Assembly: GCA_018401695.1 (NCBI GenBank)
Contig: JAGYKD010000002.1
Coordinates: 62,001 to 126,000 of the forward strand
Direction of reading: 5' to 3'
Length of the DNA stretch: 64,000 nucleotides
Source of the DNA: Flavobacteriales bacterium
GTDB taxonomy: Bacteria > Bacteroidota > Bacteroidia > CAIKAF01
The notes below the pieces were generated by a model. That model had not been told where the DNA came from and made no database searches. It saw only the letters and a program-made list of their open reading frames with translations. Shown piece after piece: positions 3,359 to 60,210 of the stretch. Position 1 is the stretch's first letter; each line of letters begins with the position of its first letter. Made by a program: the position numbers and the translations under genes.

Positions 3359-3433
3359 GGAGGGCATAGTTCAGTTGGTTAGAACGTCAGATTGTGGTTC
3401 TGAAGGTCGTGGGTTCGATTCCCACTGTTCTCC
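3359..3433 (+). tRNA. tRNA-His (GTG)
   Basis: A full cloverleaf folds: acceptor GAGGGCA with TGTTCTC, D arm GTTC/GAAC, anticodon stem TCAGA/TCTGA around the loop TTGTGGT (anticodon GTG), and T arm GTGGG/CCCAC. The extra G at 3359 and discriminator C at 3433 form the G-1:C73 pair diagnostic of tRNA-His. CCA is not encoded. A TATATTTG -7-like box sits at 3324-3331. The antisense strand is the 3' end of the TraB/GumN-like gene. Confidence 0.95.
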
Positions 3434-14602: not shown

Positions 14603-14676
14603 TGACCCCGAAGAGATTCGAACTCCTAACCTTCTGATCCGTAGTCAGATGCTCTATCCAGTTAAGCTACGGGGCC
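14603..14676 (-). tRNA. tRNA-Arg (ACG)
   Basis: Minus-strand cloverleaf: acceptor GGCCCCG with CGGGGTC, D arm GCTT/GAGC, anticodon stem TCTGA/TCAGA around loop CTACGGA (anticodon ACG), and T arm AGGAG/CTCTT. The discriminator is A and CCA is not encoded. Confidence 0.95.
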
Positions 14677-14736
14677 TTATTAAGGAGTGCAAATATATAG
14701 TCCTTATTTCTATTCCCAAAGCATTTGTGCTCTTTT

Positions 14737-14767
14737 TTTGGAAACGCAGCAAAAAAGACTACCTTTG
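14737..14767 (+). promoter_or_regulatory. Bacteroidota housekeeping promoter of rpsU
   Basis: TTTG (14737-14740), 19 bases, TACCTTTG (14760-14767) matches the TTTG/TAnnTTTG consensus. Transcription should start near 14773, giving a leader of about 24 nt that holds the Shine-Dalgarno site. Confidence 0.8.
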
Positions 14768-14778
14768 CCCTCCAGACA

Positions 14779-14787
14779 AAAGGAGGT
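14779..14787 (+). promoter_or_regulatory. Strong Shine-Dalgarno site of rpsU
   Basis: AAAGGAGGT is fully complementary to the 16S rRNA 3' end and lies 9 nt before the rpsU ATG. Bacteroidota genes mostly lack such sites. In Flavobacterium johnsoniae, bS21 helps hide the anti-SD, and an SD on rpsU lets ribosomes lacking bS21 translate it preferentially, which is an autoregulatory loop. Confidence 0.9.
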
Positions 14788-14796
14788 GTTTTTATT

Positions 14797-14994
14797 ATGT
14801 TGATTATTCCAATAAAAGAAGGCGAAAATATCGACCGGGCCCTAAAGAAGTTCAAAAAGAAATTTGAGCGTACAGGAACCATGAAGCAACTGCGTGGTCG
14901 TCAGAATTTTACCAAACCTTCGGTAAAGCGTCGTGACGAAGTGCTAAAGGCTGCCTATCGTGAGCGCATGCGAAGCCAAGAAGAAAATGCCTAA
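14797..14994 (+). CDS. rpsU: 30S ribosomal protein bS21
   Basis: The 65-residue basic protein starts MLIIPIKEGENIDRALKKFK and contains the KxRRDEVLKAAYRERMR tail typical of Bacteroidota bS21. It sits at the 30S platform near the anti-Shine-Dalgarno strand. The start at 14797 is fixed by the perfect SD 9 nt upstream; the frame is open further upstream but crosses the promoter. It begins the conserved run rpsU-xer-hpf-tRNAs-tuf. Confidence 0.97.
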   Translation: MLIIPIKEGENIDRALKKFKKKFERTGTMKQLRGRQNFTKPSVKRRDEVLKAAYRERMRSQEENA

Positions 14995-15006
14995 TTCTGA
15001 TTGCGC

Positions 15007-15930
15007 ATGTCGGAGCCAAGCGATACTCTAGTTCCGTCATTCGTAGCCTATTTGACATCTGAGCGCAGATGTTCAGCACATACCATTAAAGCATATAAGG
15101 AAGACCTGAATCAAGTTCAGGTCTTTCTTTTTGGTTTGGGCCAAAGCCCCAATTGGTTGTTGGTTGAGCCGGAAGATTTTAGCAGGTATTTGGTTTGGCT
15201 TCAACACCGAGGACTTGCAAAGACCAGCATCAATCGAAAAATTTCGGCCATACGCTCCTTTTACCGGTATTTACGCAAAAAAGGACTGCAAGTAAAGCAT
15301 CCATTAAGAGATATAACCAACCTGAGAGTTGCCGAAAAGACGCCCAGATTTTTAACGGCTAAACAAGCCGAGGGATTAAAGACACTGGTTTTTGGGGAGG
15401 ACTTTTCGGGGTACAGAGACAAGCTCATGTTGGGGCTGTTTTTGTGGACCGGAATGCGAAGTGCGGAGCTTATTGGCTTAACATTAACCGATGTAGACCT
15501 AACGCGAGCTCAATTACGTGTTATGGGAAAAGGGAATAAAGCAAGAATATTGCCTTTGCATGCCTTGTTGATTGATCAGTTGAGTACTTATTTACATGTG
15601 CGTACTCTTTTTTTGAAAGATATAGGAGTTCAAAGGCCGGAGCTATTTCTTAACGACAAAGGGGGGGCGCTTCAGGCGAGTTGGCTATACCGTAGGGTAC
15701 GCTATTACACCGGTCAGTTGACCAAAGAGAGTTACAGAGGTCCGCACCTTTTGCGTCATTCTTTTGCCACATGGATGTTAAATAATGGAGCGGATATTCA
15801 GGCGGTGAAGGAGCTGCTTGGCCATGCAAATTTAGCGGCAACTCAGGTGTATACGCATGTGGAATTTGAGCGCATGCGGGAGATGTATAGAAAAGCACAT
15901 CCGAAAGGCAGAAGCAAGGATGGAGAGTAA
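15007..15930 (+). CDS. xerC: Tyrosine recombinase XerC/XerD family
   Basis: The 307-residue protein has an N-terminal SAM-like core-binding domain (AYLTSERRCSAHTIKAYKEDL) and the catalytic residues of the Xer family: R in WTGMRSAELIGL, K in VMGKGNKARILPL, HxxR in HLLRHSFATWML, H in LLGHANLAATQ, and the Tyr nucleophile in VYTHV. It resolves chromosome dimers at dif. Its place between rpsU and hpf is the usual one for the housekeeping Xer recombinase in Flavobacteriia; whether it is XerC or XerD by homology is uncertain. A TTG at 15001 is a possible alternative start. Confidence 0.9.
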   Translation: MSEPSDTLVPSFVAYLTSERRCSAHTIKAYKEDLNQVQVFLFGLGQSPNWLLVEPEDFSRYLVWLQHRGLAKTSINRKISAIRSFYRYLRKKGLQVKHPLRDITNLRVAEKTPRFLTAKQAEGLKTLVFGEDFSGYRDKLMLGLFLWTGMRSAELIGLTLTDVDLTRAQLRVMGKGNKARILPLHALLIDQLSTYLHVRTLFLKDIGVQRPELFLNDKGGALQASWLYRRVRYYTGQLTKESYRGPHLLRHSFATWMLNNGADIQAVKELLGHANLAATQVYTHVEFERMREMYRKAHPKGRSKDGE

Positions 15931-16091
15931 TGTAAGCTTAGAAGATGAACGATGAGTTATAGAGTTGAATGAAGTAATTTTTAAGAGCGCAGATTCAAAT
16001 ACTTTGAGACAATTTAAGAGAAAGCTAAAGAGGGTGACGGAAAGAATGCTCGGCAACTTCTATATTTAGGCAAAATTTAAACCATACTACG

Positions 16092-16385
16092 ATGAACATA
16101 CTGATAAATCCGGTTAATTTTAACATAGAGGAATCTTTGAAAGACCATACGCAAAAGAAAATGGAGAAGTTGTATGGTTTATATGAAGAGATTGTGGGGA
16201 TAGAAGTGAACTACAAATTGGAGAACAACTCAGAGGATTCGAATAAGACAGCAGAAGTTCGGGTGAAAGTGCCGGGCAATGATTTATTTGCAGGCAAGAC
16301 AGGCAAGACCTTTGAGGAGTCTTTGGATGCCTGCATGGATGCCTTGAGGAAGCAGGTAGAGAAGCACAAGGAGCGCCACCGTTAA
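16092..16385 (+). CDS. hpf: Ribosome hibernation-promoting factor, short form
   Basis: The 97-residue protein has the HPF/RaiA fold: a beta-strand with NILINPVNFNIEESLKDHTQKK, a Lys-rich helix, the strand VEVNYKLENNS-like middle, and a C-terminal helix ending in EKHKERHR. It binds stationary-phase ribosomes. It lacks the C-terminal dimerisation domain of long HPF. It is located between xerC and the tRNA-tuf operon. Confidence 0.92.
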   Translation: MNILINPVNFNIEESLKDHTQKKMEKLYGLYEEIVGIEVNYKLENNSEDSNKTAEVRVKVPGNDLFAGKTGKTFEESLDACMDALRKQVEKHKERHR

Positions 16386-16400
16386 TTTTTTTTTAGCGGT

Positions 16401-16433
16401 TTTGGTAATTGAATAAAAACTTTACTACATTTG
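16401..16433 (+). promoter_or_regulatory. Promoter of the tRNA-Thr/tuf operon
   Basis: TTTG (16401-16404), 21 bases, TACATTTG (16426-16433) fits the Bacteroidota consensus and lies 17 bp before tRNA-Thr. Confidence 0.75.
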
Positions 16434-16450
16434 CAGCCCTTTGCGCACCA

Positions 16451-16524
16451 GCCGGTGTAGCTCAGTTGGCCAGAGCAGCTGATTTGTAATCAGCTGGTCG
16501 GGGGTTCGAATCCCTCCACCGGCT
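16451..16524 (+). tRNA. tRNA-Thr (TGT)
   Basis: Acceptor GCCGGTG/CACCGGC, D arm GCTC/GAGC, anticodon stem GCTGA/TCAGC with loop TTTGTAA (anticodon TGT), and T arm GGGGG/CCCTC are all present. The discriminator is T. Confidence 0.96.
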
Positions 16525-16544
16525 CCGTTCTTTATGCGCAAAAT

Positions 16545-16627
16545 GGGGAGATACTCAAGCGGTCAACGAGGACAGACTGTAAATCTGTTGCCAATCGGCT
16601 TCGTAGGTTCGAATCCTGCTCTCCCCA
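16545..16627 (+). tRNA. tRNA-Tyr (GTA)
   Basis: Class II tRNA with acceptor GGGGAGA/TCTCCCC, anticodon stem ACAGA/TCTGT with loop CTGTAAA (anticodon GTA), a long variable arm (TGCCAATCGGCTTC), and T arm GTAGG/CCTGC. The discriminator is A. Confidence 0.96.
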
Positions 16628-16644
16628 CTATTTCGTTTTGGATG

Positions 16645-16674
16645 TTGCAAATTAGTTGGAAACGACTACCTTTG
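16645..16674 (+). promoter_or_regulatory. Internal promoter before tRNA-Gly
   Basis: TTG (16645-16647), 19 bases, TACCTTTG (16667-16674) matches the Bacteroidota consensus and lies 22 bp upstream of tRNA-Gly. It gives the second half of the tRNA-tuf cluster its own start. Confidence 0.7.
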
Positions 16675-16695
16675 CACCCCGTTGCGAGGTAAAAA

Positions 16696-16769
16696 GCGGG
16701 AGTAGCTCAGCTGGCTAGAGCATTAGCCTTCCAAGCTAAGGGTCGCGGGTTCGAATCCCGTCTCCCGCT
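16696..16769 (+). tRNA. tRNA-Gly (TCC)
   Basis: Acceptor GCGGGAG/CTCCCGC, D arm GCTC/GAGC, anticodon stem TTAGC/GCTAA with loop CTTCCAA (anticodon TCC), and T arm GCGGG/CCCGT fold cleanly. The discriminator is T. Confidence 0.96.
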
Positions 16770-16801
16770 CAAGTCCCTTGGGACATTTGTTCTTTATGAA
16801 A

Positions 16802-16874
<73 letters not shown>

Positions 16875-16917
16875 CTGACAATTGAATCATTGCACAACCG
16901 GTTCTAAATCTCTAAAC

Positions 16918-18105
16918 ATGGCAAAGGAGAACTTCCAGCGGACAAAACCGCACCTTAACATTGGTACCATCGGTCACGTTGACCACGGTAAAACTACCTT
17001 AACAGCCGCAATTACTTCGGTATTGGCAGCTGACGGTCATTCTCAGGCAAGGTCTTTCGATTCGATCGACAACGCCCCGGAAGAGAAAGAGCGTGGTATC
17101 ACCATCAACACATCGCACGTAGAATACGAAACTGCGAATCGTCACTATGCACACGTTGACTGTCCTGGTCACGCCGACTATGTAAAAAACATGGTTACTG
17201 GTGCAGCTCAAATGGACGGAGCCATTCTGGTAGTAGCCGCTACGGATGGTCCTATGCCGCAAACCCGCGAGCACATCCTTTTGGCTCGTCAGGTAGGCGT
17301 TCCACGTATTGTAGTGTTCATGAACAAAGTGGACATGGTGGATGACCCCGAATTGCTCGAGCTCGTTGAAATGGAAATTCGTGATCTTCTTTCGTTCTAC
17401 GAATTTGACGGCGACAACACTCCGGTTGTTCAAGGCTCCGCCTTGGGTGGCTTGAACGGAGAGGAGAAATGGGTTCAAACCGTACGCGATCTTATGGCTT
17501 CGGTAGATGAATTTATCCCTGTACCTCCGCGTGATGTGGAAAAAACCTTCTTGATGCCGGTAGAGGACGTGTTCTCTATTACAGGTCGCGGTACTGTAGC
17601 TACAGGTCGTATTGAAACCGGTGTAATCCTTTCCGGAGAGGAAGTGGAAATCATTGGAATGCAAGAAGAGAAAATGAAGTCCGTGGTAACGGGTGTAGAA
17701 ATGTTCCGTAAAATTCTTGACCGTGGCGAAGCCGGCGATAATGTTGGTTTGTTGCTCCGCGGTATTGACAAGAAGGACATCCGTCGTGGTATGGTAATTG
17801 CCAAGCCGGGTTCTATTACACCTCATACCGAATTCAAAGCTGAGATTTACGTGTTGAAGAAAGAAGAGGGTGGACGTCACACTCCTTTCCATAACCGTTA
17901 CCGTCCTCAGTTTTACTTGCGTACCACTGACGTTACCGGAGAAATCACGCTTCCTGAAGGACGTGAAATGGTAATGCCAGGGGACAACGTAACCATTACA
18001 GTGAAACTCATTGTACCGGTTGCAATGGACAAGGGTCTTCGTTTTGCCATCCGCGAGGGTGGACGTACGGTAGGTGCCGGCCAGGTTATCGAAATCATCA
18101 AGTAA
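16918..18105 (+). CDS. tuf: Elongation factor Tu
   Basis: The 395-residue GTPase delivers aminoacyl-tRNA to the ribosome. It shows [14 protein letters not shown] (P-loop), [13 protein letters not shown] (switch I region), [25 protein letters not shown], and the C-terminal barrel ending [14 protein letters not shown]. The start at 16918 ([19 protein letters not shown]) is the family start; an ATG 12 codons earlier lies just after tRNA-Thr and is not used. tRNA genes precede it and a strong hairpin follows. Confidence 0.99.
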
Positions 18106-18123
18106 TATTGATCGACCTGATAT

Positions 18124-18170
18124 GCGGTTGGTGCCTTCCTGGGTATTCAGGAAGCGCCAACCGCTTTTTT
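18124..18170 (+). terminator. Terminator after tuf
   Basis: A long hairpin (GCGGTTGG...CCAACCGC outer arms, TTCCTG/CAGGAA inner arms) is followed by six T residues. Because tRNA-Trp starts 1 nt later with no clear promoter between, read-through or processing probably feeds secE-nusG. Confidence 0.85.
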
Positions 18171-18241
18171 ACGGGTGTAGTTCAAGGGTAGAATAACGGT
18201 CTCCAAAACCGTTGATCTTGGTTCGAATCCAGGCACCCGTG
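18171..18241 (+). tRNA. tRNA-Trp (CCA)
   Basis: Acceptor ACGGGTG/CACCCGT, D arm GTTC/GAAT, anticodon stem ACGGT/ACCGT with loop CTCCAAA (anticodon CCA), and the T-loop TTCGAAT. The discriminator is G. The tRNA-Trp-secE-nusG order is the conserved one. Confidence 0.96.
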
Positions 18242-55045: not shown

Positions 55046-56302
55046 ATGCCTTATTATTTCACCAGTGAGTCCGTTAGTGAAGGACATCCCGACAAAATAG
55101 CTGATCAGATTTCAGATGCGCTGATCGACCACTTTTTGGCTTTTGACCCCAACTCCAAAGTGGCTTGTGAAACTTTGGTAACTACAGGTCAGGTGGTGCT
55201 TGCAGGTGAGGTCAAAACCAATACCTACCTCGACGTTCAGGAAATTGCCAGGGAGGTAATCCGCAAAATTGGTTACACGAAGTCCGAATACATGTTCGAA
55301 GCCGATTCCTGTGGAGTGCTTTCGGCTATTCACGAACAATCTCAAGATATCCGTCAGGGAGTAGACCGAGCTTCCGCCGAAGAACAAGGAGCCGGAGACC
55401 AAGGTATGATGTTTGGTTATGCTTCTAACGAAACCCAAAACTTCATGCCTTTGGCATTGGATATGTCCCACGCTATCCTAAAAGAATTGGCAGATATTCG
55501 GCGCCAAGGTGACAATGGTTCCATGCCTTACCTGCGTCCCGACGCTAAAGCTCAAGTGACCCTTGAATACAACGACGACAATAAGCCGGTTAGAATCAAA
55601 GCCATTGTTATATCTACCCAACACGATGCTTTTGGTGACGACCAAAGCATGATGGCCACCATCCGTAAGGACATGTTGGAAGTGCTTATGCCGCGTATCA
55701 AGGAAAAGTACAGCCGTTATGCCTCTTTCTTTAACGAGGATATCGATTACCACATCAATCCTACCGGTCGTTTTGTTATTGGTGGGCCACACGGAGATAC
55801 CGGGCTAACCGGCAGAAAAATTATTGTGGATACCTACGGAGGTAAAGGAGCACATGGTGGAGGAGCATTTTCCGGGAAAGACCCTAGTAAAGTGGATCGT
55901 TCCGCAGCTTACGCTACCAGACATATAGCCAAAAATATGGTAGCCGCAGGTATTTGCGACGAAGCCTTGGTTCAAGTAGCTTATGCCATCGGGGTGGCTC
56001 AGCCCATGAATTTGTATGTGAATACTTATGGCACAGCTAAAGTTCATATGTCAGACGCTGCTATTGCCGAAAAGTTAATGGAGATTTTCCCCATGACTCC
56101 TTATGCCATTGAGACTCGGTTAAAACTTAGGAATCCAATCTATACCGAAACAGCTGCCTATGGCCACATGGGGCGCAGCAACGAAGTTGTTTCCAAAACC
56201 TTCAAAAACCCCAACGGCGAAACCGTTATACGCGAAGTTGAATTGTTTACCTGGGAAAAACTCGATTTTATAGATAAAATCAAAAGCGCTTTTAGCCTTT
56301 AA
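55046..56302 (+). CDS. metK: S-adenosylmethionine synthetase
   Basis: The 418-residue enzyme has [27 protein letters not shown] and the catalytic [19 protein letters not shown], all MetK signatures. It makes SAM from methionine and ATP. The protein is slightly longer than E. coli MetK. A terminator follows. Confidence 0.98.
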
Positions 56303-56452: not shown

Positions 56453-57358
56453 GTGGGACAGTATTCTATAAAAGAGATTGAACAACTTACGGGCATCAAG
56501 GCCCATACCATTCGTATTTGGGAACAACGTTACGGCTTTGTAGAACCGCATCGTACCGATACCAATATTCGGTTTTACGATGATGAGCAGCTTAAGCTCT
56601 TACTCAATATCAGCGCTCTTATCCGAAATGGACGAAAAATCTCTCATGTCTCTAAACTTAGTAAAGATGACATCAAACAAGAGCTGCAACAGTTAACTAG
56701 CCAAAGCGATCACGAACAAGACTATTATGCCATTCAAGTTGATGCCCTGGTAGTAGCCATGATTGACATCGATGAGGCCCGTTTTGAAAAGGTTATTTCC
56801 AGCTGTACTTTAAGGTATGGATTTGAGTCGGTAATGGTTCACCTTTTGATTCCTTTTTTGCACAAGGTCGGTTTGTTATGGACTACTGGAGAAATTAATG
56901 TCGCTCAAGAGCATTTCATCACCAACCTCATCCGTAGGAAGCTGCTGGTAGCCATAGATGGTCATGTGGGCAAAAGACTTCAAAAACAAAAATTTATTTT
57001 GTTTTTGCCCGATGGGGAGCTTCATGAAATTGGCCTTTTGTTTGCTAAGTACCTTATACGCAGCCGTGGCTTTCCCTTAATTTATTTGGGCCAATCCGTT
57101 CCAATGCATGACCTGCACGCCATTTGCAAAAGTTACAACCCCGATTTTTTGCTTACCTATTTTACTGTCGGTTATCAGGCAGACCAAGTGCGGGGTGTGG
57201 TCCAAGAATTATCAGAAACTTATTCCCAAACACGTTTCATTATTTCCGGTCCTTTGGCAGGCGCAGCCGGCAAATCACTCCCAGACAACGTAGTACGGAT
57301 TGGAAGTGTCGAGGAAATGATATCCTTCCTAAATAATCTCACCATTCAGGAGGCCTAA
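56453..57358 (+). CDS. MerR-family regulator with B12-binding domain (CarH/LitR-like)
   Basis: The 301-residue product has an N-terminal MerR helix-turn-helix (YSIKEIEQLTGIKAHTIRIW) and a C-terminal cobalamin-binding region. Trp143, Glu153 and His154 form the W-x9-EH motif (WTTGEINVAQEH) and ELHEIG (E189, H191, G194) matches the E-x-H-x-x-G motif; both are hallmark positions of CarH, the AdoCbl light sensor. The start is GTG at 56453. It sits upstream of two ECF sigma genes, beyond a repeat-rich gap. It probably represses transcription in the dark. Confidence 0.85.
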   Translation: MGQYSIKEIEQLTGIKAHTIRIWEQRYGFVEPHRTDTNIRFYDDEQLKLLLNISALIRNGRKISHVSKLSKDDIKQELQQLTSQSDHEQDYYAIQVDALVVAMIDIDEARFEKVISSCTLRYGFESVMVHLLIPFLHKVGLLWTTGEINVAQEHFITNLIRRKLLVAIDGHVGKRLQKQKFILFLPDGELHEIGLLFAKYLIRSRGFPLIYLGQSVPMHDLHAICKSYNPDFLLTYFTVGYQADQVRGVVQELSETYSQTRFIISGPLAGAAGKSLPDNVVRIGSVEEMISFLNNLTIQEA

Positions 57359-57365
57359 ACCACCT

Positions 57366-57639
57366 GAGACTTTTGACCCGTTGTGTTTTCAAGTTTATAA
57401 CCCTGACCAAGGCATCAGGGGCGAATTAAGGCGCGGACAAATGGAAAGTCTCCTGACGCTTCGGTCAGGACAGGCTAAAGTTTACTGGTTGTAAATGTGG
57501 AACCACTGACGCTTCGTGCTGACGCTGCGGTCAGCATCTTTGAGTCAGGACAAAATGCTTGAGAATTGAACCTAACGCAAACCCTGACGCTGCGGTCAGG
57601 ACAGGATTGCCGTCAGAATAGCAGCGCGTCAACGGTCTC
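57366..57639. mobile_element. MITE-like element, copy D (274 bp, with inserted palindromes)
   Basis: It runs from GAGAC to GTCTC between perfect 5-bp direct repeats CACCT (57361-57365 and 57640-57644). Its ends are more diverged than in A-C. Internally it keeps CGAATTAAGGCG, AGTTTACTGGTTGTAAATG and CGTCAGAATAGC but is expanded by palindromes of the CCTGACGC...GTCAGG type at the places where copy C also has them. Confidence 0.8.
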
Positions 57640-58473
57640 CACCTGCTCTAGTGTGCTATTTCCAATCACAAATCCTAAAAGAGTTTTTCCAAGGCATTCA
57701 AATCCATCTAAAGCTCTCAAACGGATCGAAATCCAAACCTACGGTTCAATCACTTGATGGTAACTGAGGCCCACCCCTGACGCTTCGGTCAGGGTTATAA
57801 ACCTCATCGCTGCGGTCAGGATTCAAAAACCAAATGCTACATGCTGATGCTTCGTGCTTACGTGGCGCTTAGCATCTTTGAGTCAAGAAAGAATCGCCGT
57901 CCGAATAGCAGTGCGTCATTAGGCTCAATGCGTCAACAGTCATATATAGATGTCCGCAGAGGTAAAAAGTGTCAAGAAGTAACGTGGGGCGGCATTTCCT
58001 GCCCTTCCTTATACGCTTCGGCTTGCAAACACGCAGGGCTAAGCGGTGCGTGGGCCTCCCAAAAATAGGGAGGCCTCCGCCCGCCAAGCCCTACGGCTCA
58101 CAAGCCTGCAGGGTAACCGGTCGGTCAGGGCCGCAAGTGTACCTTGTTCTGGTATTCGCCCTTTTGATCCTTTTAAGGGTTCCAGACCCTTGAGTGTATG
58201 CTATTCCGGAGGCTCCCATGTAGCCTGTTCAAAGCGTCATGGCACCCACCACAATCTCAAAACTAAAGTATCCTAATTTTTCAACGCTCTTGAGCCTGCC
58301 CCAATGCTCTCTGGAGTCTGACCTTGCCCCTAGGTTCGAAACAACTGGCCTGAAGAATACCGTTTAATCACCCTAGATAAAAGGCCTCTCCTGAAGTAAA
58401 AATTGTAAAGGAAAGCCCTCAATGTTAAGAAAATGAAATTCGGCCTATGGAGCGGACTTTCTTGTTTAATCAA

Positions 58474-58506
58474 TTTGGATAAATATTAAACAAAAGCATA
58501 TCTTTG
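58474..58506 (+). promoter_or_regulatory. Promoter of the first ECF sigma gene
   Basis: TTTG (58474-58477), 21 bases, TATCTTTG (58499-58506) matches the Bacteroidota consensus. It is followed by GGAGGT at 58511-58516. Confidence 0.7.
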
Positions 58507-58522
58507 AAATGGAGGTATGGTT

Positions 58523-59044
58523 ATGAAAACAACAGCATTTAATTTTCAAAACGAAGTAATAGCACTTAAAGATCCCCTAAGGTACTTTGCTTTAAGTCTT
58601 ACACACGATGATAATGATGCCGACGACTTGGTCCAAGAAACCATGTTGAAGGCGCTCATTTACAAGGACAAGTTCGCAGAGAACACCAATCTTAAGGCTT
58701 GGTTGTTTACCATAATGAAGAATCTATTCATCAACAACTACCGCAAAAAGACCAAGGTGCGCATGGTTTTTGATGGCAGTAAGGAGCTTTTTCAACTCAA
58801 TATCCCCGAAACCAAAAAAGCGTACGACCCCGACGCACAAATCAATTACAAGCAAATTCAAGAAGCCATGGATGCTTTGGATGAGGATTACGGAAAGCCG
58901 CTTCGCTTGTATTTTGAGGGGTATAAATACAAGGAAATTGCCGATATGTTGGAACTGCCCATTGGAACTGTTAAAAGCAGAATCTTTTTGGCGCGCAAGC
59001 AATTGGTGAACCCTCTAAAAGCCTTTATTTACGAGCATTCTTAA
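58523..59044 (+). CDS. ECF-type RNA polymerase sigma factor 1
   Basis: The 173-residue product has sigma region 2 (DDADDLVQETMLKALIYKD-like, NTNLKAWLFTIMKNLFINNY) and region 4 (YKEIADMLELPIGTVKSRIF). It belongs to the sigma-70 ECF group common in Bacteroidota. An unusually good SD (GGAGGT) lies 6 nt before the ATG at 58523, which is preferred over the ATG at 58517. No anti-sigma gene is adjacent. Confidence 0.88.
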   Translation: MKTTAFNFQNEVIALKDPLRYFALSLTHDDNDADDLVQETMLKALIYKDKFAENTNLKAWLFTIMKNLFINNYRKKTKVRMVFDGSKELFQLNIPETKKAYDPDAQINYKQIQEAMDALDEDYGKPLRLYFEGYKYKEIADMLELPIGTVKSRIFLARKQLVNPLKAFIYEHS

Positions 59045-59134
59045 TGCTGTTTAACTTTTTAACGTTTTTTGACCTTAAAAGAGGCATTCGGTTAAACAAG
59101 GGCAAGTTTCTGTAAATGTGTAGATTATGTAACA

Positions 59135-59160
59135 AAAGCGGCTTTAAAGCCGCTTTTTTT
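59135..59160 (+). terminator. Terminator between the two ECF genes
   Basis: AAAGCGGCTTT and AAAGCCGCTTT form a nearly perfect palindromic stem followed by T residues. It separates the transcripts of the two sigma genes. Confidence 0.85.
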
Positions 59161-59225
59161 AATTGTACGAACCTGCATTATGTTTAACTTTTTATATCTT
59201 AGCTGTAAACAAAAGTCCAGCAGTT

Positions 59226-59762
59226 ATGGCACATTCTTCTTTTAATTTTTCTGCAGAAGTTATTGCGTTCCGGGAGCCGTTAAGGTATTATGCATTGAGC
59301 CTAACATCTAGTCGCGAAGAGGCAAACGATTTAGTTCAAGAAACTATGCTTAAAGCTTTTACTTACCAAAAGCGATTTAAAGCAAACACCAATTTGAAGG
59401 CATGGCTATATACCATCATGCGTAATATTTTCATTAACAACTACCGCAGAAATCAAAAATTTCGCACCATTGTTGATACCACCAAGGAATCCTACTACTT
59501 AAACATTCCTCAATCTACCAAGGATCCTAACAACCCGGAATCAGCGCTCCGGTACAAGGAAGTGTATAGCGAAATGAATGCCCTTACCGAAGATTTCAGA
59601 GTCCCACTCATTATGTACTTCGAAGGGTTTAAATACAAGGAGATAGCCGAAAAGCTTGACTTGCCTATTGGCACCGTAAAAAGCAGAATATTTTTGGCTA
59701 GAAAACAAGTGGCTCTTGCTTTGCAAGACACACAAAAGCTTCCGGTGGCCCAAGCTTCATAA
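59226..59762 (+). CDS. ECF-type RNA polymerase sigma factor 2
   Basis: The 178-residue paralogue has the same regions: EANDLVQETMLKAFTYQKRF, NTNLKAWLYTIMRNIFINNY, and YKEIAEKLDLPIGTVKSRIF. It is clearly a tandem duplicate of ECF1. The start at 59226 (MAHSSFNFSAEV) is chosen because a TTG 21 codons earlier gives a poor N-terminus. It has its own terminator and no anti-sigma partner here. Confidence 0.88.
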   Translation: MAHSSFNFSAEVIAFREPLRYYALSLTSSREEANDLVQETMLKAFTYQKRFKANTNLKAWLYTIMRNIFINNYRRNQKFRTIVDTTKESYYLNIPQSTKDPNNPESALRYKEVYSEMNALTEDFRVPLIMYFEGFKYKEIAEKLDLPIGTVKSRIFLARKQVALALQDTQKLPVAQAS

Positions 59763-59816: not shown

Positions 59817-60210
59817 GCCCCAAACCCAATCAAATTTCTCTAAGGTACCCCTTCCTATTTTCTCTGGGTGCTTGTAAGCTTAGGTCCAAAGAATTTGGAT
59901 CGGGAAAAATCAACATCCTACCCGCTTTAACGTAGACGACTTTTTTAAGGAATGGAGACTGTTGATGCGTTGCGTTTTCAAGGCAAATTAAGGCGCAGGC
60001 AAATAGAAAGGCCGCAGTTTACTAGTTGTAAATGAGGACCTTAATATTTGACTGCAACGCCAAGTTGCCGCCAGAATAGCGTCGCATCAACAGTCTCGAA
60101 TGCTTAGGACTTGACTGGGTCAAATAAGTGACCACTCCTTTGAAAAGATACCGTGGCAACCCACTTAGGCTTTCAGGGACATCCAAAAAGCAAGCGGCTT
60201 AAGCATGTTA
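59817..60210. repeat. Intergenic region with MITE copy B
   Basis: This gap after the second ECF terminator holds MITE copy B (59955-60097). The rest is unremarkable AT-rich sequence. No gene is visible. Confidence 0.75.
59955..60097. mobile_element. MITE-like element, copy B (143 bp)
   Basis: The ends are GAGACTGTTGATGCG and CGCATCAACAGTCTC, a perfect 15-bp inverted repeat. It is flanked by the 5-bp direct repeats GAATG at 59950-59954 and 60098-60102. Its interior is nearly the same as copy A (GTTTTCAAGGCAAATTAAGG, GTTGCCGCCAGAATAGC). Confidence 0.9.

Follow-up and report, generated by a model that had tools for sequence, protein, structure and literature searches.

A conserved palindrome suggests that a CarH-type B12 regulator controls ECF sigma factor and proteorhodopsin genes in Bacteroidota

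A CarH-type regulator encoded ahead of two ECF sigma factor genes in a Flavobacteriales genome probably represses both of them in the dark, together with an unlinked proteorhodopsin-blh operon, and would release all of these genes in light. The same 30-bp palindrome lies at the two ECF promoters and upstream of rhodopsin genes in many families. Across Bacteroidota, we think it fairly likely that CarH directly represses proteorhodopsin through this palindrome, in some lineages within a folE-rhodopsin-carH-crt operon; one sensor would then serve both photoprotection and light-energy capture, and proteorhodopsin would be tied to B12 supply.

RESULTS

The carH-ECF locus

The window is the whole 64,000-nucleotide stretch analyzed (G000:C12:62001-126000), taken from a host genome of 2.99 Mb. 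The features discussed here are listed with their positions in the window, most of them followed by the evidence.

55046..56302, + strand: metK, family-conserved upstream neighbor of carH, outside the proposed circuit
56453..57358, + strand: carH-type regulator, 301 aa (ORF, domains, sequence and fold comparison)
57359..58375, no strand: dispersed genomic repeats of two different families in the carH-ECF1 gap (genome matches, repeat search)
58463..58492, no strand: proposed CarH operator at ECF1, TGTTTAATCAATTTGGATAAATATTAAACA (upstream comparison, motif search)
58499..58506, + strand: Bacteroidota -7 promoter box TATCTTTG (TAnnTTTG), directly after the ECF1 operator (motif position)
58517..59044, + strand: ECF1 sigma factor, 175 aa, with ATG 58523 as an alternative start (ORF, domains)
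59181..59211, no strand: proposed CarH operator at ECF2, TGTTTAACTTTTTATATCTTAGCTGTAAACA, spacing 19, with the -7-like sequence TATCTTAG inside
59226..59762, + strand: ECF2 sigma factor, 178 aa from ATG 59226 (ORF, domains, upstream comparison)

ECF1 and ECF2, which the earlier note had recognized as two ECF genes following the regulator, each contain sigma regions 2 and 4 and no region 3. The TTG start listed for ECF2 at 59163 is probably wrong, the ATG given above being the conserved start. The carH-ECF1 gap measures 1158 bp in the window and 628 bp in the closest relative. It had been described as a 1.16-kb block of mobile repeats, and both its length and its repeats are real: the gap sequence matches the genome at 77 places, its own included (approximately 76 elsewhere), with 73–100% identity. 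The description does not extend to the final ~140 bp before ECF1, which are non-repeat, are conserved in the closest relative, and hold the promoter and the proposed operator. The dispersed repeat at 57359-58375 recurs at 59946-60106, where a second copy flanks ECF2; it has tens of genome copies and several CTGACGCTTCGGTCAGG-like units.

The order metK-carH-ECF is kept in the genus, and both ECF copies are present in all six genus genomes. The rest of the family has a single ECF gene, which is unlinked from carH in genomes G001, G003, and G015. In a tree of the ECF proteins the window copies fall into different subgroups with moderate support, ECF1 grouping with the one ECF protein that genus g2 has and ECF2 with the genus copies. 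No Rfam RNA elements were found near the locus; elsewhere in the window, Rfam models marked a six-tRNA cluster at 14603-18241 and one more tRNA at 3360-3433.

A CarH-type regulator without the upper-ligand histidine

Apart from the regulator, no MerR-B12 protein was found in the whole genome. The domains of the regulator run in the order MerR DNA-binding domain, four-helix B12 cap, and Rossmann B12-binding domain; the MerR_1 and B12-binding_2 Pfam matches exceed their cut-offs, and the Rossmann domain falls under its threshold (25.9 bits against 32.1). Thermus CarH is the best solved relative by sequence comparison (E 2e-29, ~27% identity), and it is also the top PDB fold match (5c8d, E 6e-16) of an AlphaFold2 model with a pLDDT of 89.6. 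Compared with full-length Thermus CarH, the predicted model gives TM values of approximately 0.57–0.64 overall and approximately 0.8 for the B12 part. The NCBIfam CarH equivalog is the top match among such models at 125 bits, where the cut-off is 400; this cut-off is an annotation threshold and not a mechanistic feature.

Both motifs that the earlier note read as signs of an AdoCbl photoreceptor, W-x9-EH and E-x-H-x-x-G, are present. The cap motif Wx9EH is intact (W143-x9-E153-H154), and the lower axial ligand motif D/ExHx2G/P appears as E189-L-H191-E-I-G194. Across 115 Bacteroidota relatives, W143, E153, H154, E189, and H191 are invariant, and G194 is variable (kept in 61). In the alignment, the remainder of the B12 motif (x41-SxT/V-x22-27-GG) partially resembles the consensus, with TYFT at ~235–238 and GP at 266–267.

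The regulator has Thr144 where Thermus CarH has His132. None of the 115 Bacteroidota CarH proteins carries His at this position, and Gln is the commonest residue, so that, as far as the alignment tells, there is a phylum-wide change at the position of the light-state ligand; the photolysed state must be stabilized differently from that of Thermus, or not at all. This substitution and the sub-threshold Rossmann domain would both suit a protein that no longer senses light and regulates simply in response to B12, or independently of it. We consider such a loss very unlikely, because the lower-ligand His and Wx9EH are invariant and the latter separates B12-dependent CarH from B12-independent CarA (PMC9304148). 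Thermus CarH has also been solved as the H132A variant, both dark and light-exposed, which means that the cap forms without His132. The literature gives a His after the cap Trp for "many CarH" (PMC9304148), not for all, so we do not treat this residue as defining CarH.

Our preferred reading is that the regulator is a Bacteroidota form of CarH, predicted to bind AdoCbl and to leave DNA when illuminated, and we hold this to be probable jointly with the whole explanation of which it is part. The AdoCbl cofactor is probably present in the host, since the genome encodes IcmF, a B12-dependent enzyme, beside its rhodopsin operon, and IcmF enzymes use AdoCbl.

A palindrome at carH-ECF promoters

Comparison of upstream regions yielded a 30-bp palindrome, TGTTTA-N18(19)-TAAACA, usually TGTTTAA-N16-TTAAACA. 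A strict search placed the motif in 50 of 60 carH-ECF gaps, compared with 0.48 in shuffles; 59 copies in these gaps have spacing 18 and seven have spacing 19. Among exact copies in 80 Bacteroidota CarH loci from other genomes (1.46 Mb), 75 of 77 adjoin carH, that is, lie within -600/+900 bp. The window genome contains three exact copies, one at each of the ECF1 and ECF2 promoters and one inside an ORF. Sixteen family genomes hold 40 exact sites, compared with 10 for the reversed pattern, and comparison of coordinates puts 24 of the 40 at ECF, carH, or rhodopsin genes. The palindrome stays at the ECF gene where this is unlinked from carH (exact in G001, one mismatch in G003 and G015). The TAnnTTTG box overlaps or abuts the palindrome in 31 of 50 loci, compared with 5.2 in shuffles, as expected for a repressor site.

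This palindrome is new here, and CarH is the probable binding protein. Each half of the palindrome, TAAACA, agrees with the TnnACA half-site published for CarH (PMC9304148), here arranged as an inverted repeat with a fixed spacing of 18 or 19. Known CarH operators, including those of Thermus and Bacillus, are instead tandem 11-bp direct repeats with TnnACA and not palindromes; that arrangement is not universal, and operator design is described as plastic (PMC9304148). Tandem TAAACA..TAAACA direct repeats in the carH-ECF gap were considered as candidates and rejected because they have no preferred spacing. A genome-wide listing with one mismatch allowed gave 15 sites in the window genome, not above the reversed-pattern control, and for this reason only conserved or well-placed sites are used.

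The direct-repeat form of published operators would also fit a palindrome that belongs to another dimeric regulator or to an ECF feedback loop, with CarH working elsewhere. Some CarH genomes have no motif near carH, as in 22 of the 31 CarH loci that lack a neighboring ECF gene (called by script), and a near-motif occurs in G014, a genome in which no CarH was found (L169:8974-9543, a same-family ECF with a one-mismatch palindrome). Nevertheless, the clustering of exact sites beside carH and the match to TnnACA speak for CarH, a symmetric site is an unexpected shape for a sigma factor promoter, and in genomes G149 and G175 carH itself lies inside apparent operons headed by the palindrome. Ownership by another regulator is, in our judgment, distinctly unlikely.

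Several further sites were seen in the family. In G011, an exact palindrome lies directly before folE (GTP cyclohydrolase I; L203:4971-5000), a gene that in G149 and G175 also belongs to the apparent rhodopsin-carH operons. In G015, a palindrome overlaps the start codon of a photolyase-like gene (L214:4857-4886) and may be there by chance. G001 has an exact copy beside carH as well as at its ECF gene, and a further copy before an AhpC/TSA-like gene.

The palindrome upstream of proteorhodopsin genes

The rhodopsin gene of the window genome (G000:C18:8304-9065) is preceded by a palindrome with one mismatch, 48 bp 5' of the ATG. A rhodopsin gene occurs in all six genus genomes, and its upstream region holds an exact palindrome in G005, G007, and G008 and a one-mismatch palindrome in G000, G006, and G009. 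In the three genomes with exact copies, the palindrome is intergenic and stands directly before a Bac_rhodopsin gene, which is followed by a beta-carotene dioxygenase gene. The rhodopsin has the DTE proton-pump motif; its class was assigned from the Bac_rhodopsin Pfam match of the G007 orthologue, which is 98% identical to the window-genome protein. For the G007 blh product, blh_monoox scores 78 bits, under its 95-bit cut-off, and the BCD Pfam exceeds its cut-off. Marine Flavobacteria have the same arrangement in their proteorhodopsin-blh operons, with a beta-carotene dioxygenase gene after that of the DTE-type pump (PMC3587595, PMC4831467).

A close rhodopsin was found in 83 of 395 genomes of the class. 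Outside the genus, 21 of the 73 readable rhodopsin upstream regions have an exact palindrome and 41 have one within one mismatch (shuffles: 0% and 1.5%, respectively), and these sites occur only at spacings 18/19 (42, compared with 1–6 at other spacing pairs). Control upstream regions of 582 other genes gave no exact and two near sites; they come from CarH loci and not from the same genomes, and the shuffles serve as the composition-matched control. Related genomes are not independent, so that Fisher values against the control upstream regions overstate the enrichment; the spread of exact copies across 12 families is the better measure. Within the rhodopsin-bearing genomes, CarH is present in 76 of 77. 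Approximately 44% of rhodopsin upstream regions have no motif within 250 bp, CarH being nonetheless present.

Two genomes bring these genes together. In G149 (L333:1884-5167) and G175 (L334:2105-5105), an exact palindrome heads the order queD-like gene, folE, rhodopsin, carH, which explains two of the rhodopsin genes without a site directly upstream. The order runs on into crtI and crtB in G149, where light sensor, pump, and carotenoid genes apparently form one operon, and the G175 contig ends within carH.

Earlier work found PR, NaR, and ClR genes to be light induced in the flavobacterium Nonlabens (PMC4831467), described PR as constitutively expressed in Dokdonia PRO95, and stated that flavobacterial proteorhodopsin regulation needed further work (PMC3587595). 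The titles, abstracts, and passages available, with most subscription journals outside reach, contained nothing relevant tying CarH, LitR, or MerR to proteorhodopsin regulation. To a system with light-induced expression in one strain and its regulation left open, the present comparison adds a candidate regulator and operator.

Carotenoid genes and the proposed output of the circuit

The window contains no crt genes, as the earlier note had observed. The genome does have an intact crtZ-crtI-crtB-crtY operon 427 kb from the carH locus, and crt is unlinked from carH throughout the family; missing linkage alone therefore implies no new output, and the argument for one from the missing crt neighbor fails. 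We found no support for envelope genes, the output that had been suggested. The additional output to which the operator lends support is proteorhodopsin with its retinal-making enzyme. Sequence, fold, and the shared operator support both the CarH type of the regulator and its proposed control of the ECF genes, for which binding is predicted.

The CarH-ECF-crt arrangement is common in Bacteroidota, many of the 80 CarH loci having carH-ECF-crtI-crtB in a row. Cytophagales clusters (Algoriphagus, Pontibacter, Roseivirga, and others) share with the window the same ECF family after carH and the same palindrome in the gap; the window differs in having two ECF genes with one operator each and crt unlinked. 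A separate ECF promoter before crtI was rejected in Cytophagales because the ECF-crtI spacing is too short, and these genes look like one operon.

The tight carH-ECF-crtI-crtB cluster of Cytophagales and the complete crt operon of the window genome would agree with an ordinary carotenoid switch, in which the ECF factors drive the unlinked crt genes and the motif at rhodopsin genes is either incidental or the site of some other factor. All six genus genomes have an AACA-N16-GTTA pattern 5' of crtZ. If this is an ECF promoter, it would favor such a switch, but the pattern is weak, is drawn from the genus crtZ upstream regions, and is only a lead. The motif is far above chance upstream of rhodopsin genes in many families, and G001 and G003 retain CarH and ECF with no crtB found (L037, L039, L167, L168, L201, L336), so the output in these two genomes cannot be crt. 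We regard a purely carotenoid circuit as unlikely. The palindrome was also considered as a shared motif at crt and rejected: none lies 5' of crtZ or crtI in the family, bar one two-mismatch site in G011. Elsewhere on the window's contig, a second crtI-like gene is followed by a small membrane-protein gene with a putative likeness to CruF (G000:C12:187379-188839, L022), a possible second carotenoid locus.

DISCUSSION

In the explanation that we favor, AdoCbl-bound CarH would sit on TGTTTAA-N16-TTAAACA palindromes in the dark as a dimer or larger oligomer. Where these overlap or abut TAnnTTTG promoters, CarH would repress ECF1 and ECF2, and the unlinked proteorhodopsin-blh operon would be repressed likewise. 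Light would split the cobalt-carbon bond, CarH would leave the DNA, and the ECF and rhodopsin-blh genes would be transcribed; a second tier of genes, probably driven by the ECF factors, would follow, and the unlinked crt operon may be among them. This model builds on the motif itself, on where it lies and how it is conserved, and on the joint occurrence of CarH and rhodopsin; it predicts CarH as the palindrome binder, a need for AdoCbl, release in light, and the ECF targets. Against it stand the CarH-free near-motif of G014, the carH loci and rhodopsin upstream regions without a motif, the direct repeats of published operators, the constitutive proteorhodopsin of Dokdonia PRO95, and the motif-free crt promoters of the genus.

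The regulator is like CarH/LitR of Thermus thermophilus, Bacillus megaterium, and Myxococcus xanthus in domain order, the Wx9EH cap, the lower-ligand His, the TnnACA half-site, and regulation beside a sigma or crt locus. It differs from the Thermus protein in lacking a His after the cap Trp, and from all three systems in having ECF and rhodopsin genes as its proposed targets. Light control in Streptomyces, which belongs to a different phylum from the host, likewise involves a MerR-B12 regulator with an ECF sigma gene next to it (LitR-LitS).

Among the proteins that harvest light in the surface ocean, proteorhodopsin is a major one. The conserved operator and the B12 photoreceptor together offer a specific candidate answer to how it is controlled in flavobacteria, and the palindrome lets a putative CarH regulon be read directly from Bacteroidota genomes. 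If the model is true, B12-short cells would make the pump in darkness as well, and ocean B12 limitation would be linked to phototrophy. An operator before both an ECF pair and a proton-pump gene in a marine-type bacterium suggests how many Bacteroidota may switch on proteorhodopsin in light.
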